DNA of 49,881 nucleotides from a virus: the IMG/VR virus record IMGVR_UViG_3300042691_013885, positions 1 through 49,881 of that record. One strand, given 5' to 3'. A model generated the notes under the pieces. That model was given only the letters and a program-made list of their open reading frames with translations, did not search any database and was not told the DNA's origin. Within the stretch, counting starts at the first letter, position 1. Each line of letters begins with the position of its first letter. Shown here one piece after another: positions 7,116 to 27,075 of the stretch. The translations under genes were made by a program, and so were the position numbers.

Positions 7116-7316
7116 TCAGCGTCTCATGCGCGACCGACTGCTCGACGAGTCTTGGCGCATCTTCTCCTCTCGCTTCTGCTCTAGGTCGACTTTCTTCAGG
7201 ATCAGGCGGTGTCGACGGGTCAGGGGCATCTCCATGATGTCGGCGTAGGAGAGCCCCCAGACCTCCATCAGGTAGAAGATTTCGTCTTCAAGCCCCTCTG
7301 GACCCGATCCGGGAAG
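7116..7316 (-). CDS. -1 frameshift extension of the tail chaperone (66 codons)
   Basis: This ORF has no start of its own and lies in the -1 frame relative to the upstream 272-residue chaperone gene, entered at the T TTT TTC heptamer (7322-7316 on the minus strand). Re-reading the C at 7316 gives 66 codons ending TGA at 7118-7116, so the fusion would be 323 residues (257 + 66). The extension contains EDEIFYLMEVWGLSYADIMEM followed by a basic helix (LILKKVDLEQKREEK), resembling the short second hub-assembly chaperone of T4-like phages (gp51-like). The gpG/gpGT-type frameshift just before the tape measure gene is a conserved device for making two chaperone forms. The frame and heptamer are seen; frameshifting is inferred. 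Confidence 0.8.
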   Translation of the reverse strand, partial: LPGSGPEGLEDEIFYLMEVWGLSYADIMEMPLTRRHRLILKKVDLEQKREEKMRQDSSSSRSRMRR

Positions 7317-8086
7317 AAAAAACCCTGCTGCCCCAGATCAAGCTCGCGCTTGAAGTCGTGGCCGCACGCCGGGCAGGTCATGTCGAGCGAGGTGTCCACC
7401 CCGCCGTCCTTCTCCTCCAGCATCGCGCGGAGAGCCTGACGGTCACGCCACGACAGCGACTTGACGTCGAGCATGGTCGGAACCTTGCCGTCAAGCATCT
7501 CGGTTCGCGCGAGGAGCATGGCCGAGGGCTTCTCCTCGTCGGGAACCTTGGCGACCTTGTCCTCGTCAGCGCCGACGCCGAGGCGGAAGCGGACCTTCTT
7601 GCCCGACGGCAAGGTCTCGTCGAACACCCGGCGCATCGGGTCCGGGAGCTTCTTCACTTCGAGTTCCCCGAGGTCGAGGATGAAGTTGCTCTTGGCGCTA
7701 CACGCCGGGCACGTCTCCTCGACCGGAAACTCGTCACCGAGCGACGTCCGGCGCAAGGCGATGATGAGGAACACGCGGTCCCCGATGGGAAGCTGGCTGA
7801 CGATGGTCGGGAACGTGGTCTTGTCGGTAACGGTGCCGATGCGCTCCAAGCAGTTCGACACGATGGCGTTGATCTTCTTCTGTGGCGACAGCTTGTTCGA
7901 CGCCAGAAGGTCTTCTTCCCGGCCCGTCATCTCGCGGAGGTGAACCTCCGTGTGGAGCGTCCCCGTGTTGTCGATGAAGCCGCACGGAAGCTCGTACATC
8001 CCGTGCGTGGACTTCGGGGTCTCCAGTTGGTTCTGGATGACGACTTCCGCGAACGAGATCTTCTTGTTGTCAGCCTTCTCCGTCAT
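7268..8086 (-). CDS. Tail assembly / baseplate hub chaperone, gp26-like, zinc-binding
   Basis: 272 residues in the zero frame; ATG start with GGAGGACCGA upstream and a 4-bp overlap with the gene before it. Two CPAC motifs (C126/C129 and C238/C241) would bind one zinc and bracket a beta-rich segment, a pattern I associate with T4 gp26-type hub-assembly proteins. The N-terminal half is helical (LREMTGREEDLLASNKL, INAIVSNCLERIG). Located immediately upstream of the tape measure gene with a -1 frameshift site near its 3' end, it most likely keeps the tape measure soluble and helps hub assembly. It may be absent from the virion. Family assignment is moderate; the chaperone role is strongly supported by context. 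Confidence 0.78.
   Translation of the reverse strand: MTEKADNKKISFAEVVIQNQLETPKSTHGMYELPCGFIDNTGTLHTEVHLREMTGREEDLLASNKLSPQKKINAIVSNCLERIGTVTDKTTFPTIVSQLPIGDRVFLIIALRRTSLGDEFPVEETCPACSAKSNFILDLGELEVKKLPDPMRRVFDETLPSGKKVRFRLGVGADEDKVAKVPDEEKPSAMLLARTEMLDGKVPTMLDVKSLSWRDRQALRAMLEEKDGGVDTSLDMTCPACGHDFKRELDLGQQGFFFPDRVQRGLKTKSST
7316..7322 (-). promoter_or_regulatory. Slippery heptamer T TTT TTC for -1 frameshifting
   Basis: On the coding strand the codons GGT TTT TTC TTC (residues 255-258 of the chaperone) form the X XXY YYZ heptamer T TTT TTC. A -1 slip keeps pairing at both tRNAs and opens the 66-codon extension, while the zero frame continues only 15 more codons to the stop at 7268. I did not identify a clear stimulatory hairpin immediately downstream. 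Confidence 0.75.
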
Positions 8087-11205: not shown

Positions 11206-14073
11206 TCAGGAGTTGAGCGACTTCTGCTGGAAGCGGAGGCGGACGAACTCGGCGGGCTTGTTCGGGGCAACACCGATGTCGATGATGACCTGACCAGCCT
11301 CGATGGTCGCCGACGTGTTGTTCGACTCGTCGCAGACCACGAAGTACGCCTGCGAGGGGTTGAGACCCGCAAAGTACCCGTTGGAGAACAGGTTCCCGAG
11401 GAACGAGTCGAGCTGCGCCTTGATGCGCGCCCACAAGCCGGGGCCGTTGTTCTCGAACACGATCCACCACGTCGCGTTGAAGATCGACTTCTCCAAGAAC
11501 ATGAACAGCCGGCGAGCGTTGATGTAGCGCCAGTCGGGCACGTTCGAGATCGTCCGCACACCCCAGACCGCCAGACCCGTCTGCGTCGAGGCGATGAGCG
11601 GATTGATCTTGTTCGGGTACACGACGTCGCGGTCGGCCTGCGTCGGGTTGGTCTCCAAACCAACGAGGTACGCGAGGGCGCCGTCAACCGTACCGCCGGG
11701 GGACTTGCCGACGTTCCGGTTCGCGTCCGTGCGCGCGTACACGCCCGCGATGTGGCCGAGCGGCGGCACAAGCACCGGGCGGTTGTTCTGGAGCGGGTCG
11801 ATGACGCGCACCCACGGCCAGTAGAGCGCCGCGTAGTCCGAGCTGCGGTTGAGGTCGAACCGGTACCAGTCGACCGCCCGCTGCGCCGTGTAGCCCTGCG
11901 GAGTCGTGAGGATGATGAACCGGTCGCCGCCCGAAGGCAGCGAGGTCCGCATCGCCGCGTAGTCCAGCAGATCGCTCGTGACGATCAAGTTTCCGGCAAA
12001 GTCCGGCACCGCGATCTGGAGGATCTCCTCGACCTTGTTGAAGGCATAGAGACCCTCATTGTCAGCCGCGAGCGCAGTCATGTCGGTGAACTGCGAACGG
12101 CCCCAGTGCGTCGAGTCGAACGTGCCTTCCGTACCGACCTGATAGTCCTTGTCTGCATCGCCGAACGTCTCGACGTGGACGGCTTCCGCCGGCTTCGAGC
12201 CGTAGGACACCACGACGAGGGTTCCGCCCTTGATGAGATCCTTCGTCGTGAAGTTGATCGCACCAGTGGTGTAGTTGACCGTGTTGACGGCCGAGGCGAC
12301 GACCGAGCCAGACAGACCGCCAAAGCCGTCGTCCGTGATCGTCTGCGTCGCGCCCGATGTGTTGGTGTACGTGACCTTCACCGTGCGAGGCTGGATCGGC
12401 TTGTCGAGCAACGTGGCCGAGAACGCCTTGTTGCCGGCCAGTCCCGTACCACCGCCGAGCACCATCGAACGAAGCACGCTGTTCAGTTGGAGGGGTGCAA
12501 CATTCCCAGCGGGCTCCGAAACCGTGATGTATTCCGACAGCTCGTTGACGACGTCCGCGAAGTAGACGGGCGAGTCAGGGTTGTCGAAGACCATCTCCTC
12601 GTACTGCTCAACCACGACGAAGCTCGACGTGGACGTCTCGCGCAGGAGCACGAGCATGTCGAACCGCGAGAACGACGACGTTGCTGCGTCGAAGAAGTCT
12701 GGCGAGCCCGCGATCTGCACCTGAAGGTTGTTGCCCCACGCGCCGACGGAGATGGGGTCCAAGTTCCACGCGTTCTGCTTGTAGGACGCGAGGTACGGAA
12801 CGAACTCATCCGCGAAGTCGAAGGGGTCGATCTCGAAGTCACCCGTCGAGTAGTCGACGGCGCCGGGGCTGGCGACGTTGCCGGTCCAGAGACCGGCCTC
12901 CGACTCCGTCGTGGGAGCGACAGAGAAGATCGCTGCGGACACCGACTCCGCGAGGACGATCTTCACCGGCGCCGCAGAGTTGGGAACGAGACGGATCTGA
13001 TCTCCGTTCGCGGCGCCGTCGACCTCAACCGCCTTGACGAGGAGACCCTCAGCGCTGTTGATGGCTGCGATGGTGGCCGCGCGAACGGTCTCCACGGTGT
13101 CAGCCGCAGTGAACGGGATCGGGATACCCGTCGAGGCGCCGTTCTGATCGTACTCAAAGACGACCGCAGGCCCGTCGCCAGTCGTGATCTCGAACGAGTC
13201 GCCGTCAACCAGATCGGAACCGAGGGCGACCCGAATCGAACCGCAGCCGTCTTGAATGACCAACGTATCCGAGAGAGGCGTGAAGTCGACAGTGACGTTG
13301 GCGCCCGTGTCAGCCGCGACCGGAACGTAGGTGCCGTACAGCCGGATCGAAAACCGGCCCGACTTGTGATCGAACGTAGCGACCAGCCCGTCGACGGCGT
13401 CACCGACAGAGGTCTGCACGATGGACGACGTTCCCGCTGGAATCGGGATGGCAACCGCACCTACCACGTCCAACGTGAGGTTGACGGTGACGGTCCCGCG
13501 CGCCACGAGGTCGAACTCCGTCGAGATCTCGGCGAGGCCCGCCGGATCGATGCGACCCTCGTAGGAAGCGACACTCTCCTCCAGCGTAAGGTCGGCGCTG
13601 TCATCTCGCGTGCGCGCGACGCTGCCGGTGACCGGGCCACCAGCGGACGACGAGGACCGCAGTTTTACGGTGATGGAGCCCGGAACCAAGGGTCCGGCGC
13701 CGCCTGCGGTCTCGAAGGTGCCGACGATGGGGTCCGTGGTGCCGTCACCGACACCGACCTCGACGTTCGTGAGGGCCGACTGAATCTTGGCATTCGCCGC
13801 GACCGCATCCGACGGGGGAACGCGGACCACATAGGCCCGACGACCGCCGTTGGCGAAGAACGCCGCGAGGGAGAGCGGCATGAAGCTCTCCTTCACCAGC
13901 CCACCGAACGTGCGCGTGAACTGCTCGTAGGACTGAACGAGGACCGCTTCGTTGGCTGGACCGCGCGAAGCGTAGCCGATGATGCCGAGGTTCGACGTGG
14001 TGACGCCGGGAACGATCTGGGCGGCAGTCGGAACTTCTTCGACGAATACGCCGGGGGAGAGATAGTCAGCCAT
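11206..14073 (-). CDS. Tail sheath protein
   Basis: 955 residues. The N-terminus MADYLSPGVFVEEVP and the following VTTSNLGIIGYASRGP are hallmarks of phage sheath proteins, and the C-terminal third carries the conserved core (VPDWRYINARRLFMFLEKSI, TWWIVFENNGPGLWARIK, GLNPSQAYFVVCDESNN). Residues about 110-540 are expanded relative to T4 gp18 (659 residues) and hold beta-rich insertions, presumably exposed on the sheath surface; residues 550-628 resemble a domain also found in the capsid protein. The start ATG has AGGAG upstream. Sheath contraction drives the tube through the envelope. A long antisense open frame on the plus strand is a shadow. Confidence 0.93.
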   Translation of the reverse strand: MADYLSPGVFVEEVPTAAQIVPGVTTSNLGIIGYASRGPANEAVLVQSYEQFTRTFGGLVKESFMPLSLAAFFANGGRRAYVVRVPPSDAVAANAKIQSALTNVEVGVGDGTTDPIVGTFETAGGAGPLVPGSITVKLRSSSSAGGPVTGSVARTRDDSADLTLEESVASYEGRIDPAGLAEISTEFDLVARGTVTVNLTLDVVGAVAIPIPAGTSSIVQTSVGDAVDGLVATFDHKSGRFSIRLYGTYVPVAADTGANVTVDFTPLSDTLVIQDGCGSIRVALGSDLVDGDSFEITTGDGPAVVFEYDQNGASTGIPIPFTAADTVETVRAATIAAINSAEGLLVKAVEVDGAANGDQIRLVPNSAAPVKIVLAESVSAAIFSVAPTTESEAGLWTGNVASPGAVDYSTGDFEIDPFDFADEFVPYLASYKQNAWNLDPISVGAWGNNLQVQIAGSPDFFDAATSSFSRFDMLVLLRETSTSSFVVVEQYEEMVFDNPDSPVYFADVVNELSEYITVSEPAGNVAPLQLNSVLRSMVLGGGTGLAGNKAFSATLLDKPIQPRTVKVTYTNTSGATQTITDDGFGGLSGSVVASAVNTVNYTTGAINFTTKDLIKGGTLVVVSYGSKPAEAVHVETFGDADKDYQVGTEGTFDSTHWGRSQFTDMTALAADNEGLYAFNKVEEILQIAVPDFAGNLIVTSDLLDYAAMRTSLPSGGDRFIILTTPQGYTAQRAVDWYRFDLNRSSDYAALYWPWVRVIDPLQNNRPVLVPPLGHIAGVYARTDANRNVGKSPGGTVDGALAYLVGLETNPTQADRDVVYPNKINPLIASTQTGLAVWGVRTISNVPDWRYINARRLFMFLEKSIFNATWWIVFENNGPGLWARIKAQLDSFLGNLFSNGYFAGLNPSQAYFVVCDESNNTSATIEAGQVIIDIGVAPNKPAEFVRLRFQQKSLNS

Positions 14074-20238: not shown

Positions 20239-21732
20239 TCAGAGGTTCGTCACACGCATCTGGCCGTAGTATTCCGGGCGAAGCAACTTCTTCGCGTAGC
20301 GGGTACGCATCGCCTTACGGAGCGAGAAGTCGTTCGGGTCGAGGAAGGTCTGCGTGACCTGAAGCGGAATGTACGGCGCCCAGACGTAGCCAGCGTCGAG
20401 GAAGCTGCCGCCCTTGAGGCCGATCAGCATCTGGTCGCGCTGGAAGAAGGGATCCTCGTACACCATCCACTTGTTCTGGAGGGTGCCGACCTTGTAGATG
20501 CCGAACTGACCCTGCGCCGTCAGAGGACGGGGCATGTCGGCCGGACCATACGGGCTCTCGGCGCCCGAGACGTAGGCGGCGCGGAAGTCGCCGTGCGTCG
20601 TGAGCTGGGCGAGCAGCGCCGACACGTCGGGCGACGTGACGATGAAGTTCGCGGGCGCGCGGAGGGTCTTCTTGTGGATCTGGTTCGACACGGTCGAGAT
20701 GACCGTGAGCATCGAACGCAGGTGGTCGAGTTCCGAGATGCCAGCCGGCGGCACGCGGTCGAACGAACCGGTGGTGCTGGTCGAGTTCTGGAACAGGTCG
20801 TCGATGATCTCGCGGTCGATCTCCAGCGCCATCTCCTGCGCGACGGCCGAGACGATCTCCGTCTCAGCGTCGATGCCGTGGAACGCGCGGAGGTCTTCAG
20901 CAGCCTCGCTCGACCACAGAGCCTTCAGGCGGCGGGGCTGGGCCTCGACCGGAGCCTTCTTCACGTCGAGCTTCATCGACGGGATCTTGGTGTTCAGTTC
21001 GCCGTCGTAGCTGTAGAACGCCTTGATCGGGTTGCCGTTCGCGGGAGCAACCGCAAACTTGAAGCCCGTGACCGCGCCGTTGGCGTAGTTGATCGTTCCG
21101 GCCGAAGCATCGCCCGAGAAGCCGCCACCACCGTTGTCCGTGGCCGTCTGCACGACAGCGCCGGTCGTCGCGTTCAGCTCCTTGACCTGCACCGAGTAGC
21201 CGGCCGAGGCGTTCAGCGGACGAACCGGGTTGAACGACAGGGTGACCGACAGAGCCGCGCCAGCGCCGCCGAAGGCTGCGCCGTCGCCGGTGGCGAGGAT
21301 CTCACCCTCGATCTTCTCCGAGGTGTAGTTGCGGTCGAAGTCACGCGGGAACACGGCGCCGCGCTGCGTCGGAGCCTTGTTCGTGTCGTAGATGTAGTCG
21401 AGGAAGAAGACCGCACCGACGCTCGCCGTCATCGGCTGCACCGACACGAGGTCGTGAGCGATGAGGTTCGGGAACACGCGACGCAGAACCGGGAAGATGA
21501 ACTTCGTGAACGAACCGACGTTCACGAGGCGCGTTTCCTCTTCGAGGCTCTGGAGGTGCTGCGACTCGTTCTCCATCAGCACGGCAGTCGTGCCGAGGAC
21601 GTAGCGGTCACGCTCCGTTCGGTCGGGCAGCCCTTCCAGCAAGTCCTTCCACTTGCGGACGAGAGCGCCGACGTAGGTCTTGTCGGCAATCGTCCGACGC
21701 GAGTCTTCAAGAACCAAGTTGCGTGCTTCCAT
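20239..21732 (-). CDS. Major capsid protein, gp23-like
   Basis: 497 residues from ATG 21732 (GAGGAGAGACAG upstream); the frame is open further upstream but without a better start. The block LIAHDLVSVQPMTASVGAVFFLDYIYD is the gp23-type HK97-fold signature, and later segments (AEDLRAFHGIDAETEIVSAVAQEMALEIDREIIDDLF, ANFIVTSPDVSALL) also fit. The N-terminal about 65 residues are charged and probably a delta domain removed by the adjacent protease, by analogy with T4. Residues about 159-245 form a glycine-rich beta insertion that resembles one in the sheath protein. A strong terminator follows. Confidence 0.93.
   Translation of the reverse strand: MEARNLVLEDSRRTIADKTYVGALVRKWKDLLEGLPDRTERDRYVLGTTAVLMENESQHLQSLEEETRLVNVGSFTKFIFPVLRRVFPNLIAHDLVSVQPMTASVGAVFFLDYIYDTNKAPTQRGAVFPRDFDRNYTSEKIEGEILATGDGAAFGGAGAALSVTLSFNPVRPLNASAGYSVQVKELNATTGAVVQTATDNGGGGFSGDASAGTINYANGAVTGFKFAVAPANGNPIKAFYSYDGELNTKIPSMKLDVKKAPVEAQPRRLKALWSSEAAEDLRAFHGIDAETEIVSAVAQEMALEIDREIIDDLFQNSTSTTGSFDRVPPAGISELDHLRSMLTVISTVSNQIHKKTLRAPANFIVTSPDVSALLAQLTTHGDFRAAYVSGAESPYGPADMPRPLTAQGQFGIYKVGTLQNKWMVYEDPFFQRDQMLIGLKGGSFLDAGYVWAPYIPLQVTQTFLDPNDFSLRKAMRTRYAKKLLRPEYYGQMRVTNL
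20543..20553 (-). repeat. 11-bp motif copy 4 (GGACCATACGG on plus strand)
   Basis: Exact copy inside the major capsid gene, where it is read as the Pro-Tyr-Gly-Pro codons (SPYGPAD). It is the third copy within 2.7 kb. Confidence 0.75.
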
Positions 21733-21751
21733 CTGTCTCTCCTCGTTCGTT

Positions 21752-21771
21752 GAGCGGCGAGCTGGCCGCTC
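21752..21771 (-). promoter_or_regulatory. Hairpin in the capsid gene leader
   Basis: A 7-bp stem GAGCGGC/GCCGCTC with a 6-base loop lies between the protease-scaffold stop (21797) and the capsid start (21732), just upstream of the GAGGAGAG ribosome site. No T-tract follows, so it is more likely an mRNA stabilising or processing element than a terminator. Confidence 0.4.
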
Positions 21772-21796
21772 TACATTGTTGAATCGTATCTGAAAC

Positions 21797-23371
21797 TCAG
21801 CGGATGATACCACTCAACCGCTTGAGCGCGTCCACCGACATTCCGAGCCCGAGATAGTTTTCACCGTCCGTCCGGCGAGCCCTCGGGGAAGCGCTCTCCG
21901 TGAGTTCCTCGGGAACGTGCTCGACTCCACCCCTCATGTTCGAGCGGATGCGAGCACGCACTTCCTGAAGGTCGTCCGAATCACGAACCGGCTCGCGGGC
22001 GCTCTCGATGAGCGTGTCGACGGCGGTACGGCTGGCGGGACGCGCCGACTCGACGAGCGAGCGGAGCTTTCCGGCCTTCGGATGGTTGGAGAGACGCTCC
22101 TCCGCGTACAGGCGGGTCGTCAGCTCCTTGTTTTCCTGCTGGGCCGCGAGAAGGGCTTCCTCCATCTCCTCGCGCTTGGCCTTCTCGGCCTCCATCATCT
22201 TTTCGAGCTTGCGGAGCTTCGCGTCGACGGCGTCCCGGACCTTCTGCTCGGCCTGCCGCGCTTCCGCGACTTCCTGCGCCTTGGAGTCGGCGAGAGCCTT
22301 CTTCTCGGCAGCCTTGGCGGCGAGTTCGGACTTCACCTCGGCAACGCGGGCCTTGAGGGAATCCGACGACTCGAACGCCTTGAGGTCGCCAACCAGCCTG
22401 CGAATCGAGTCCGCATCCGGGTCGTTGGAGACCATACGTTCCAGATAGAAGCGGTACCCGACTTCCTTCGCCATGCCGGCGAGGGTCGTGTTTTCTTCTT
22501 CGAGGGTCTTCAGGCGGAGGTCGCGTTCGGCAACCTGCTTCTGGAGGTCACGGATCTCCGCGTCCTTCCCGGCCACGACCTGCGCCGCGTCTTCGGGGAG
22601 CAGGTAGGGACGGAGGACGTTACGCAGCGCGTCCAGCACGGACTTCGCCTTGCCGATCTCCGGGTCGTCCATCAGTTCCTTGCGGACTTCATCGCGCAGG
22701 CTGGACCGCATGGTGGAGAGGTTGCCGAGGATCTCCTTGGCAAACTCCTCACGAAGGTCGCCGCTGGGCGCCTTCTTGCCGGCCTTCTCCTGCTCGATGC
22801 GGCGCGCGAACTCGATGGCCTTCTCCTGCTCGTCGTCGACGTCGAACTCGACGCCCTCGAACAGGCCACGGCTCTCGGACACCTGCGGGTAGGCATCGAC
22901 GTCGGCCGGATCGGCAACGAAGTCGAACGTCACCAGCTTGTAGTCCTCCTGCACGACGTCCTGACCGCTCTCGTTGGTCTTGACGCTGCCGAAGCCACGG
23001 CTGCTCACGCCCACCGGGACATTCGCCTTGAGGAGCGCGAGCAGATTCTTGCCCGCCTCCGTCGGCATGATCTCGGCCTCACCGACAACCAGACCGTCCT
23101 TGATGGAGAGGTCGGTGACGATGTGAGAGACGCGCGCCAGCTTGGTCTGACCGTCCGAAGGATGGTCGACCTCACCGAACACGCGCCGCTCTTTGAGAGC
23201 CTTGCCGAGACGCTTGATCTCTTTTTCCCAGACAGGCTTCGGATAGACGCGCTTGTTCTCCGTTGCGATGCCGCACTTGGCGAACTCGCCCCGCAGCTTC
23301 ACACGGTCGCCGTTGCTCTCCGCGAGGGAGAGACGAACGAAGGAGACATCACTCAGGAGAGGCTTGCTCAT
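21797..23371 (-). CDS. Prohead protease fused to scaffold (gp21-like plus coiled-coil core)
   Basis: 524 residues. The first about 170 residues match T4 gp21-type head maturation proteases: H70 in FGEVDHPSDGQ, the Ser in PVGVSSRGFG (S123/S124), and D150 in LVTFDFVADP. From about 175 on, the sequence is long, charged and coiled-coil (e.g. VAERDLRLKTLEEENTTLAG and EAEKAKREEMEEALLAAQQENKEL), typical of a scaffold core such as gp22. One polypeptide thus seems to carry both functions that T4 splits between genes 21 and 22. It lies just upstream of the capsid gene. It probably shapes the prohead and then cleaves the capsid and itself. Confidence 0.85.
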   Translation of the reverse strand: MSKPLLSDVSFVRLSLAESNGDRVKLRGEFAKCGIATENKRVYPKPVWEKEIKRLGKALKERRVFGEVDHPSDGQTKLARVSHIVTDLSIKDGLVVGEAEIMPTEAGKNLLALLKANVPVGVSSRGFGSVKTNESGQDVVQEDYKLVTFDFVADPADVDAYPQVSESRGLFEGVEFDVDDEQEKAIEFARRIEQEKAGKKAPSGDLREEFAKEILGNLSTMRSSLRDEVRKELMDDPEIGKAKSVLDALRNVLRPYLLPEDAAQVVAGKDAEIRDLQKQVAERDLRLKTLEEENTTLAGMAKEVGYRFYLERMVSNDPDADSIRRLVGDLKAFESSDSLKARVAEVKSELAAKAAEKKALADSKAQEVAEARQAEQKVRDAVDAKLRKLEKMMEAEKAKREEMEEALLAAQQENKELTTRLYAEERLSNHPKAGKLRSLVESARPASRTAVDTLIESAREPVRDSDDLQEVRARIRSNMRGGVEHVPEELTESASPRARRTDGENYLGLGMSVDALKRLSGIIR

Positions 23372-23372
23372 G

Positions 23373-23567
23373 TCAGTACCGCCGCCATCGGAAGTTGCTC
23401 TTGAAGGGGGTCCGAGCGATCACGCTCTTGTCCTTCTTCTTCACCTTCCGCGTTGTCCGTCGAAAGGGGTTGAGATCGCGCTTCTCGGCTCCGAACATCT
23501 CACGCCGGCCGCTGGAGTAGGCGGTGCGGCGGTGCCGCCACGCCTCCTCCCACGGGGACGTGATCAG
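23373..23567 (-). CDS. Small basic ORF: -1 frameshift extension or CTG-initiated gene
   Basis: This frame fills the gap between the acidic-tailed head protein and the protease but lacks an ATG, GTG or TTG near its 5' end. It is in the -1 frame of the upstream gene, whose last codons TCG GGA AAC GAC TGA contain the heptamer G GGA AAC (23576-23570). A slip there would add 65 residues, giving a 286-residue product. Alternatively CTG 23567 overlaps the stop as CTGA. The peptide is very basic (TSPWEEAWRHRRTAYSS, then NPFRRTTRKVKKKDKSV, ending NFRWRRY). Internal ATG 23498 would give 41 residues. It reads as real coding sequence; the mode of initiation is unresolved. Confidence 0.55.
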   Translation of the reverse strand: MITSPWEEAWRHRRTAYSSGRREMFGAEKRDLNPFRRTTRKVKKKDKSVIARTPFKSNFRWRRY

Positions 23568-24232
23568 TCGTTTCCCGACTCGTCCTCGTCCTCGCCATCC
23601 TCATCGTCCTCGTCGTCGGCATTCGCCTCGTAGAGGTCGACCGCGTCGAGAACCGTCTCCAGACCTTCGGCGAAGGCAGCGGCGATGTCCTCGTCCGACG
23701 ACTCCTCCAGCTTGCCTTCGCTCATCGCCGTGGCGATGTCCGCGAACGACTCCGCGATCTCGCCCAGCTCGCCCGCGACGGCAGCGAACATGCGCTCGTC
23801 CTCGGACTCGTAGATGTCCGCCTTCACCCACTCGGTGAAGATGCCGGCCAGCTTGTCCGCGATGATGGCCGCGTTGGCGAACGCCTTCAGAGCCTCCGTC
23901 GAATCGAACGCCTCCTGCCGGGTGCCCAGCCGAATCGCCTTCGCGGCAACCTTGGCAGCGCGGCGCTGACCCTTGGCGGTCATCAGGCGCTTCTTGGCCT
24001 TCTTCGCAGCCTTCTTGCCCGCTGCGCTACGGCGGTACTTCTTCGCCATCATGCGCTCGGCGGTCGACGTCTTCTGCTGGCGGACCTTCTTGCCACCACG
24101 GAGGGCGACACGAACACGACCAGCCTCATCGAGGCTGTCGCTCTCGGCCTGCGGGGCTTCCGTGGACTCCTTGATCAGACCGATCTTGCGGAAGTCTTCT
24201 TCGAGGGAAGTGATCACGACGGGGTTCTTCAT
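23564..24232 (-). CDS. Putative prohead core / internal head protein, basic middle and acidic tail
   Basis: 222 residues; ATG with AAGGAGACTGGAAA upstream. Residues about 45-105 are very basic (KKYRRSAAGKKAAKKAKKRL), residues 115-190 helical and acidic, and the last 20 almost all Asp/Glu. Such charge-segregated proteins between portal and protease genes correspond by position to prohead core proteins such as T4 gp67/gp68. A GGGAAAC heptamer just before the stop could give a -1 extension. No sequence family is recognised, so the role is positional inference. Confidence 0.65.
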   Translation of the reverse strand: MKNPVVITSLEEDFRKIGLIKESTEAPQAESDSLDEAGRVRVALRGGKKVRQQKTSTAERMMAKKYRRSAAGKKAAKKAKKRLMTAKGQRRAAKVAAKAIRLGTRQEAFDSTEALKAFANAAIIADKLAGIFTEWVKADIYESEDERMFAAVAGELGEIAESFADIATAMSEGKLEESSDEDIAAAFAEGLETVLDAVDLYEANADDEDDEDGEDEDESGND

Positions 24233-24250: not shown

Positions 24251-25228
24251 TCAGTTGAGACGCGCAGCCAGTTTCGCCGCGAAGGCACCTGCAACCTCGA
24301 ACGAGGCTACCTCAGAGGCGATAGAATCGAACACCTTGGCAATCCGGTCAACCTGACCGAACTCCGCTGTGGCCTCGACCACGAACTCCTTGACCTGCGA
24401 AACGTCCGCAAGGAGGTCGGTGACGAAGGACTCCAACGAAGTGATTGCCTCCTCCCCGCCTTCCTGAACGGCCTGTTCGCGGACCTCGCGGACAGTTTGC
24501 AGTGCGGCAGAGGCTTGAGACTCGACGGCAGCCAAACGACCGAGAAGATGCTCGACGTCGTCTTGAACCAGCGTCTTGTAGTGCGGAAGCTCGGACGGCT
24601 TGGTGGACCCGTCGTAGAGCTTGGTGAACTTCGGGGAAAGCGGGGCGGGAAGCGAGGCGCTCTCGACCAGCGCGGACACACGGTCTTTCCGGCTGTCGAT
24701 CAGCATCTTCCACGGTCGGTCGGCGCGGCTCTCCTGCATGGACTGGAGCAACTCCCCGTCCGAGATGACGTTTGCAGCGTCGACAAGTGGCGCAAGGGCA
24801 GCGACTTTCTCGTTGGCCTGCGCGGTGAGACCACGGATGAACAGGTCGGCCGCAGTCCGCGCTTCCTTCTGGACGTACCGGCGCACGTTCTTCTCGGTCA
24901 CGACCGTCACCGGAAGATGCTCGGTGCCGAGGAAGTAGATGGCGCCGGCAGCGCTGCTTTCGTAGCGGATGCGCGCAACACCGCCGTCGTCGCTCAAGAT
25001 GACGACGTTGTCGGGGAACACGCCGAGAACCTGCACGGAGCGACCGCCGAACAGGTTGTGTGACTCCTCGCGGAGCGCCGAAGCGACCTTCGCAGAGATG
25101 TCTTGGAAAGACCCGGCCAAGAGCCCAGCCAGCTCGGCCGCAGGGACGAAGGGTAACTGTTGATGGGTCATCAGGGCGTTCACGCTATCCAGAGCAGAAG
25201 TTAGCGTCAAGGAAACCGCCGAACTCAA
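24251..25228 (-). CDS. Hypothetical head-associated protein
   Basis: Up to 325 residues if translation starts at the TTG that overlaps the portal stop (TTGA); ATG 25171 (MTHQQLPF) is an alternative, and neither has a strong ribosome site. The N-terminal half has a small beta domain (GGRSVQVLGVFPDNVVILSDDGG, SSAAGAIYFLGTEHLPVTV); the C-terminal half is helical and coiled (LLGRLAAVESQASAALQTVREVREQ). No known family is recognised. It is encoded between portal and core proteins, so a head-assembly role is plausible. Confidence 0.6.
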   Translation of the reverse strand: MSSAVSLTLTSALDSVNALMTHQQLPFVPAAELAGLLAGSFQDISAKVASALREESHNLFGGRSVQVLGVFPDNVVILSDDGGVARIRYESSAAGAIYFLGTEHLPVTVVTEKNVRRYVQKEARTAADLFIRGLTAQANEKVAALAPLVDAANVISDGELLQSMQESRADRPWKMLIDSRKDRVSALVESASLPAPLSPKFTKLYDGSTKPSELPHYKTLVQDDVEHLLGRLAAVESQASAALQTVREVREQAVQEGGEEAITSLESFVTDLLADVSQVKEFVVEATAEFGQVDRIAKVFDSIASEVASFEVAGAFAAKLAARLN

Positions 25229-27075
25229 CGACGGAACCCGGTCGACCGGAGGTCACGAAGCAACCCGCCCAGTTCCCGCAGTCTCAACTCCATACCACGG
25301 TCGTTCTTCAGGAGCATGTTCAACTTTTCGGTGGCCCGCTGCTCTGCGGCGGTGTTTTTCCCCTCGAAAAGCTCACGGTCGGAGATGCCATTCCTCGTCG
25401 ACAAACCGCGTCGATGGGCGTCCATCCGACGCTGGTGGAGACGGCGCTCGACGAGGTTCATGTTCCGGGGGATGACCAGCCGGGAAGCCTCAGTCGGAGG
25501 TGGACCGAACTCGCCTTCTGGAGGGGTTTCCTCTGGGGGCGCCTCCTCCGGGGGTGCTTCACCGGGAACCCCGCCTTCCGGCATCGGCGGTTGAGCCGCA
25601 GCCATCGCGTCCCCTTGAGTCTTGGCATCAGCGATGGCCTCGCCGCGTCGCTGCTTCTGGATCTCTTTGATCTCGGTCTCGGACATGCCGAAGACGTTGG
25701 AGAGGATCCAGTGCAAGGAGACGAACTCCTTCATCCGGGCAGCGAGGTCGGCCTTGGCGGTGCGAACTTCCATCTGGGCAAGCTCGAAGATCGCCGATGG
25801 GACGGTCATGTTGATGTCGTACTCGACGGAGTACGGGTCGATGTTGAGTGCTGACAGGTGAACACGCACGATCTTCCGCAGACCGTTCTTCAACTCACGC
25901 TGGATGCGAAGAACCGTGCGAGCAAACCGGACGTCCTCCGACGAGAGAACTGCCCGCGCGACACCTTGCTCTTGCCCGAGATACGCCTTCGGAACCTTGA
26001 TGGCGGCGAACAGCTTGTCCCGGAAGTATTCGATGTCGTCCATCGCCTGCCACTGGGGCGCACCCAGCGTTTCGATGCGTGTGGAGTCGACGCCTTTGCG
26101 GCTCGGAACGAAGAAGTCCTCGTCCTGCGCGAGGGACTCAAACTTCAGGTTGAGCTTCCCGGTTCCGGGGTCAACGAACCGCTTCTTGCGGAAGTTCTGG
26201 CGAACGCGGTTGACGAACGCGAGGGCTTCCTGCGGAGGCAGGTCTCCGACGTCGACGTAGAACGCGAACCGCTCCGGTGCCCGCTGGAGGCGGTACACGA
26301 GGGCCGCGTCCTCCAAGAGCATGAGCCGCTTCCAGATCCAACGGGCGGCTTCGAGGCTGGAGTGCCCGTAGACCGACCGGCGTTCCTTACCGCGAAGCCG
26401 GAAGTGCGCGACTTCCCACGGCTCGAAAGCAGAGATGGGCGCTTGGGTGAGGTCGCCGGGGCCGTTGGAGGGGGACGGGCCGGAAAACTTTGCAGCGAGG
26501 ATGGACTGGTAGTCGTTCCCGGTGAAGTCGAACCGGCCCTTGAAGTCCTGTATGAACCCGAGGAGGTCACCCTTCGGGGTCTCCAGCCGACGTACCGTGG
26601 GGGCCGGCAGGTAGTTCAGACCGCGCACGCCATCTTCGTTGACGAGGATTTCCTCGAAGTCGTTGCCGTACTTGCAGAGCGTTCGGGCGACCTCCCAGAT
26701 CTCCTCGTCCATCCGAAGGGTACGGTTGAACAAGTCGTCGATGACCTGCTGGACAGTCTTGTCCGGCGACGTGACCCATACGGTCCTGTGCATCACCGAG
26801 TCTGGCTGCGTGGCGTCGTCAGCGAGGATGTCGAGGGCGGTCGCGATCTCGCCGTAGTCGTCCATCTCCTCGTAGTCGGCGTACCGAAGCAACAGGTCTT
26901 GATCGAGCCGAAGGTACTCCGACAGCGCGTCGTACCCGACACCGGTCAGGACGTCGATGGCGCTACCGTCGATGCGGTCAGACGTCGAACCCTTTGCGAT
27001 CTGGAGGTTCGCGCGGTCCTTGTCACGGGAGAAGGCGGCAGAGATCCGCTTGGCGACGTCACCTGCGAAACCCAT
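25225..27075 (-). CDS. Portal protein, gp20-like
   Basis: 616 residues; ATG overlaps the upstream stop by one base. Diagnostic features are the wing region YADYEEMDDYGEIATALDILADDATQPD, the DLFNRTLRMDEEIWEVARTLCKYGNDFEEI block, and the clip/stem parts (FVNRVRQNFRKKRFVDPGTGKL, GAPQWQAMDDIEYFRDKLFAAIKVPKAYLG), all as in T4 gp20-type portals. Length exceeds T4 gp20 (524) because of a C-terminal extension with a Pro/Glu-rich linker (about 510-545) and a basic helical end. It forms the dodecameric DNA gate and nucleates head assembly. Neighbours (terminase upstream, core and protease downstream) agree. Confidence 0.92.
   Translation of the reverse strand: MGFAGDVAKRISAAFSRDKDRANLQIAKGSTSDRIDGSAIDVLTGVGYDALSEYLRLDQDLLLRYADYEEMDDYGEIATALDILADDATQPDSVMHRTVWVTSPDKTVQQVIDDLFNRTLRMDEEIWEVARTLCKYGNDFEEILVNEDGVRGLNYLPAPTVRRLETPKGDLLGFIQDFKGRFDFTGNDYQSILAAKFSGPSPSNGPGDLTQAPISAFEPWEVAHFRLRGKERRSVYGHSSLEAARWIWKRLMLLEDAALVYRLQRAPERFAFYVDVGDLPPQEALAFVNRVRQNFRKKRFVDPGTGKLNLKFESLAQDEDFFVPSRKGVDSTRIETLGAPQWQAMDDIEYFRDKLFAAIKVPKAYLGQEQGVARAVLSSEDVRFARTVLRIQRELKNGLRKIVRVHLSALNIDPYSVEYDINMTVPSAIFELAQMEVRTAKADLAARMKEFVSLHWILSNVFGMSETEIKEIQKQRRGEAIADAKTQGDAMAAAQPPMPEGGVPGEAPPEEAPPEETPPEGEFGPPPTEASRLVIPRNMNLVERRLHQRRMDAHRRGLSTRNGISDRELFEGKNTAAEQRATEKLNMLLKNDRGMELRLRELGGLLRDLRSTGFRR

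Follow-up and report, generated by a model that had tools for sequence, protein, structure and literature searches.

Ribosomal frameshifting close to the end of a head gene has been described for gene 10 of phages T7 and T3 (10A/10B), for Lactobacillus phage A2 and for the capsid gene of a Listeria phage, where it places a C-terminal extension on a fraction of the copies (PMC5009743). The G/GT pair of lambda is made in a similar way: a small morphogenesis gene carries, close to its stop, a heptamer of the type X_XXY_YYZ and gives a short and an extended form (PMC5009743). The heptamer GGGAAAC is used as the g-t site of halovirus HCTV-1 (PMC5009743). The phage frameshifts known so far mostly concern tail chaperones and major capsid proteins. 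In T4, the head cluster contains genes 67 and 68 between those of gp20 and gp21. The product of gene 67 is acidic, and that of gene 68 ends in a basic C-terminus. Both are core proteins which are degraded by gp21 (PMC9958956). The structure of the core of T4-like proheads is still unresolved (PMC9958956).

The DNA analysed in this work, referred to as the window, comprises positions 1-49,881 (all 49,881 nt) of the IMG/VR virus record IMGVR_UViG_3300042691_013885. Like T4 genes 67 and 68, the gene of interest lies between a gp20-like portal gene and a gp21-like protease gene. Like the frameshift gene of lambda, it carries a heptamer near its stop, and an open -1 frame lies behind it.

Results

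Reading frames in the head gene cluster

The head genes of the window were found on the minus strand in the order portal, a 325-aa protein, the 222-aa core gene, the basic frame, prohead protease and major capsid protein (Table 1). The major capsid protein has a gene of its own (20239-21813) and is not the extended protein. An earlier note on this DNA had pointed to a GGGAAAC heptamer at the end of a head gene, and the heptamer is indeed present at 23576-23570 (-), in frame with the acidic 222-aa ORF (24232-23564). A single codon (GAC) separates it from the TGA stop, and not two codons as had been stated. Starting at 23600 the -1 frame is open; read from the CGA at 23570 after the slip, it gives 65 codons before the TGA at 23375-23373, just behind which the protease ATG is located (23371). 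The length of 65 codons given in the note holds for the part after the slip; the -1 frame itself is open for 75 codons. Its description as highly basic and without a usual start was borne out: the extension has a pI of 11.8 and a charge of about +15, and there is no ATG, GTG or TTG in its frame before the ATG at 23498. A CTG at 23567 overlaps the TGA of the core gene. The 222-aa protein has a pI of 4.75 and a charge of about -13, and the predicted fusion of 286 aa has a pI of 8.8.

Table 1 Features of the head gene cluster in the window
Feature	Position	Strand	Basis
Portal protein, gp20-like	25225..27075	-	PF07230 1.7e-68
325-aa protein, function not assigned, adjoins portal and core gene, kept in relatives	24251..25228	-	ORF and relatives
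Zero-frame gene, 222-aa acidic-tailed head-core protein, conserved N-terminal motif TSLEEDFRKIGLI, helical (predicted)	23564..24232	-	ORF
Slippery heptamer G_GGA_AAC, 10 nt before TGA	23570..23576	-	Conserved or substituted by other X_XXY_YYZ in relatives
-1 frame extension, 65 codons (RLITSPWEEAWRHRRTAYSSGRRE...FRWRRY) and TGA, new basic domain	23373..23570	-	Homologues in 145 loci
Predicted hairpin 3' of slippery site, main stem 23514-23550	23509..23555	-	Folding prediction
Prohead protease (Peptidase_S77, gp21-like), long C-terminal coiled, scaffold-like region	21797..23371	-	PF03420 1.7e-17, phrog_207 4e-45
Major capsid protein, gp23-like	20239..21813	-	PF07068 1.4e-73

The arrangement exceeds what chance would give: when the 93 minus-strand ORFs of at least 80 aa in the window were scanned, an in-frame heptamer near the end inside an open -1 frame was found in only two, the core gene and an ORF before the tape-measure candidate. 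The latter ORF (7268-8086, -) has a T4_baseplate domain (PF12322) and lies upstream of the 1211-aa tape-measure candidate. It contains GGGTTTTTTC near its end, with heptamers at about 7316-7325 and a 50-codon -1 extension, and is a possible tail-assembly-chaperone frameshift. The prohead protease and its long coiled region form one 524-aa ORF (21797-23371, -) and no separate gp22-like gene precedes the capsid gene; an apparent protease-scaffold fusion is therefore seen in the window, and also in relatives. The tail sheath protein (11206-14073, -) is long (955 aa), and the known sheath domains are confined to its final third.

The core protein and the basic domain

The N-terminal motif TTLEEDFxxIGL of the core protein is common to most relatives. 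An AlphaFold model (mean pLDDT 82, helices at 57-209) predicts a helical protein with an acidic disordered end, and fold comparison gave no significant match. A relation to gp68 was also considered and rejected, since the hhalign probability was 0.3% and the genomic position alone agreed. No sequence relation to tail assembly chaperones and no match to their families (Pfam, PHROG) was found for the core gene.

The basic domain has the invariant core RR..Y..GR.E..G and an aromatic and basic C-terminal end such as FRSNFRWRRY; its invariant residues, numbered from RRTAY, are R1, R2, Y5, G8, R9, E11, G14, R28 and W49. Modelled alone, the extension gave a low-confidence AlphaFold structure and is probably disordered. 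Neither the core protein nor the extension belongs to a family in Pfam, PHROG or PDB, and the basic domain had no match in phage records. It is absent from the cultured phages that are closest by their portal (Flavobacterium phage immuto, Microcystis phage Mel-JY01, Bacillus SP-15 and cyanophage Syn1) and from the huge phage LR756511. Bacterial genomes searched with the basic domain or the capsid protein yielded no relative.

Conservation of the -1 arrangement in relatives

Viral contigs were scanned for relatives, the queries being the portal, protease and basic ORF as well as a profile built from the basic domain. Both parts were present in 145 viral loci (some being the same contig twice), which comprised 86 distinct sequences and fell into 60 clusters defined at 80% identity of the basic domain. 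Relative to the core gene, the domain is in the -1 frame in 54 of the 60 clusters; among these 54, ATG is missing before the motif in 51, and all three of ATG, GTG and TTG are missing in 39. The domain is in frame 0 in four clusters (L021, L143, L152 and L168), where an ATG of its own follows the stop by 6-51 nt, and versions starting with GTG occur in L057 and L173. Two clusters place the domain in the +1 frame: L174, which has several ATGs, and L050 (11290-11372), which lacks a start codon and whose core gene contains CCC TTT C. The case of L050 is either a +1 frameshift or a sequencing error. A locus will usually have either a slippery site or a start codon, as expected if production of the domain is required; frameshifting would then be one of two routes to it. 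In L021 (5081-5320) and L024 (6176-6416) the core gene stops at a TAG, and the domain follows as a separate gene that shares the frame of the core gene and starts at its own ATG (MSNELQ...).

As an independent check, end-of-gene heptamers with an open -1 extension were scanned without the domain profile in four loci lacking a recognisable domain. Two of the four have the same -1 arrangement at the same place, both missed by the profile: CCCTTTT with a 74-codon extension that keeps YPSGR (L060), and GGGAAAC with a 66-codon extension (L078). Three weak matches (L007-L009) were discarded as chance, covering 22 residues. Over the short segment that precedes ATG 23498, substitution patterns and codon-position counts do not separate the frames in most pairs of close relatives.

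The slippery heptamer

Of the 54 -1 clusters, 40 have an in-frame X_XXY_YYZ heptamer among the last 18 codons of the core gene, compared with 7.7 expected when synonymous codons were resampled and the protein was kept fixed. By the same measure GGGAAAC occurs in 23/54 clusters (1.2 expected) and CCCTTTC in 7/54 (1.0 expected). The earlier note had made its proposal depend on conservation of the heptamer in relatives, and GGGAAAC is kept in these 23 clusters though synonymous codons could easily destroy it. Among the distinct -1 sequences, 44 of 79 have it, down to about 45% identity. Control gene ends from the same loci contained GGGAAAC in 0/383 cases and any such heptamer in 11/383 (last 18 codons), and the 166,602 codons of whole control genes held 8 occurrences of GGGAAAC in that frame. 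Of the Gly codons in the neighbouring gene, GGA accounts for only 14%. Within the last four codons GGGAAAC was present in 22 of the 54 core genes (Fisher p 1e-22 against control gene ends), and over 23 clusters the log10 P values for the choice of G-GGA-AAC given xGN summed to -35; because the clusters are kin by descent, these P values overstate independence. In E. coli, A_AAC is a weaker slippery sequence than A_AAG (PMC5009743), which counts against the frameshift reading.

The slippery sites GGGAAAC, CCCTTTC, AAAAAAA and GGGAAAA are swapped between clades. On the protease tree the type switches at least 10 times while the -1 arrangement stays, the count being approximate because the tree was built quickly and many of its forks are weak. 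About ten -1 clusters (L004, L030, L085, L120, L126, L127, L130, L140, L153 and L162) have neither a canonical heptamer near the stop nor an obvious start. The sequence (C)CCCTAYC or CCCTCAG lies within about 15 nt of the core-gene stop in L030, L033, L130, L131, L153 and L085, and is perhaps another slip site where a canonical heptamer is lacking.

Downstream RNA structure

Folding of the 60 nt beginning 4 nt past the heptamer was compared with that of shuffled sequence. The mean z was -2.1 for 35 clusters against -0.2 for 122 control stretches; the window itself gave -2.0, and the most extreme values were -6.4 (L010), -6.3 (L137) and -6.1 (L081). In the group of the window, a hairpin with a consensus of -28 kcal/mol is predicted in six close relatives, with only two pairs showing double changes. 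It starts about 14 nt past the heptamer, a longer spacer than the usual 5-9 nt. An alignment of the sister group contains four stem pairs with double compensatory changes, but several pairs are broken in the two rows that are most distant, and the covariation term is unfavourable. Since the covariation in the sister group is mixed, double changes in the window group are few and the spacer is long, the RNA structure is regarded as supportive and not decisive.

Discussion

How the basic domain is expressed

A programmed -1 ribosomal frameshift at the end of the core gene, giving a fraction of the protein a basic arm, is very probably the way in which the domain is made. It is strongly supported by the comparison of relatives, which shows the position, the frame, the slippery site, the codon choice, the RNA folding signal and the conservation of the extension at the protein level; slippage at a useful rate is inferred. 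Most ribosomes would stop at the TGA and yield the acidic 222-aa core protein. Some would slip back one base on G_GGA_AAC, aided by the 3' RNA hairpin, and read 65 further codons to give the 286-aa form with a strongly basic C-terminal arm. The frameshift rate would then fix the ratio of the two forms and the copy number of the long one.

It is possible, though rather unlikely, that the frameshift is real and serves merely as a low, coupled output of the basic domain, which the protease would cut free from a fusion with no function. Three clusters (L021, L152 and L168) express the same domain as its own gene, so a covalent fusion is not indispensable, and the degradation of core proteins by T4 gp21 (PMC9958956) also speaks for this reading. 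However, the fused arrangement is kept in 54 of the 60 clusters, and its slippery site has been renewed many times.

Much less probable is a separate basic gene reached by termination and reinitiation at the non-AUG codon CTG 23567, which the earlier note had offered as the alternative to frameshifting. This CTG overlaps the stop in the window and its close relatives, and versions with true start codons do exist elsewhere (ATG in L021, L143, L152 and L168; GTG in L057 and L173). Nevertheless, the CTG is not conserved: it occurs in only 19 of the 54 -1 clusters, where it arises automatically from a C before TGA, and L032, L036, L042 and L071 keep GGGAAAC without it, having another base before the stop or TAA/TAG as the stop. 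Reinitiation would also leave unexplained the codon choice at the slippery site and the replacement of GGGAAAC by CCCTTTC.

Independent initiation at ATG 23498 to give a 41-aa basic peptide, which the note had named as the finding that would speak against frameshifting, can be practically dismissed: although the ATG exists in the window, the codon is ATG in just 7 of the 60 clusters, being otherwise a variable hydrophobic one (most often CTG, usually Leu or Val), and the most conserved part of the domain (RRTAYSSGRRE; invariant RR..Y..GR.E) lies upstream of it, so that this comparison of sequences favours the frameshift.

A possible role in the prohead core

The position between portal and protease, together with the charge, suggests that the frameshifted protein is a prohead-core component. 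That the basic arm may provide two forms for head assembly, as had been proposed, is plausible. The long form would be a minor, sub-stoichiometric part of the core whose arm contacts the shell, the portal, the protease or DNA, and in our working model, the most likely one, this arm anchors the core to another head component. On a wider scale, it is likely that in this large lineage of uncultivated T4-like phages the ratio of core forms is set by a -1 shift that appends a new basic domain, that the slippery site has been repeatedly replaced (G_GGA_AAC, C_CCU_UUC, A_AAA_AAA and possibly C_CCU_AYC) and that, in some clades, the frameshift has given way to a separate gene.

If this is true, ratio control based on recoding sits in the prohead core of T4-like phages. 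The PRFect authors cite work suggesting that T4-like phages use means other than frameshifting for their tail chaperones (PMC10885494, reference 44), and a head-core frameshift in such phages would be the more notable for that cited suggestion. The analysis also defines a new protein domain; lacking a start codon, it escapes ordinary gene calling. The replacements of slippery sites and the exchanges between frameshift and separate gene form a natural series for the study of how recoding evolves.

Comparison with known systems

The mechanism is of a known kind, while the gene, the domain and the setting are absent from the libraries and papers searched; no report of a frameshift in a prohead-core gene was found in the non-subscription literature searched. 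In T4, gene 68 has its own ATG overlapping the stop of gene 67 and no frameshift is involved. The frameshifts of T7/T3 gene 10, A2 and Listeria phage affect the major capsid (or tail) protein, whereas here the prohead-core protein upstream of the protease would be extended, and the extension is basic, apparently disordered and unrelated to theirs. The G/GT frameshift of lambda produces a tail chaperone before the tape measure, whereas the frameshift proposed here lies in a head-core gene between portal and protease.
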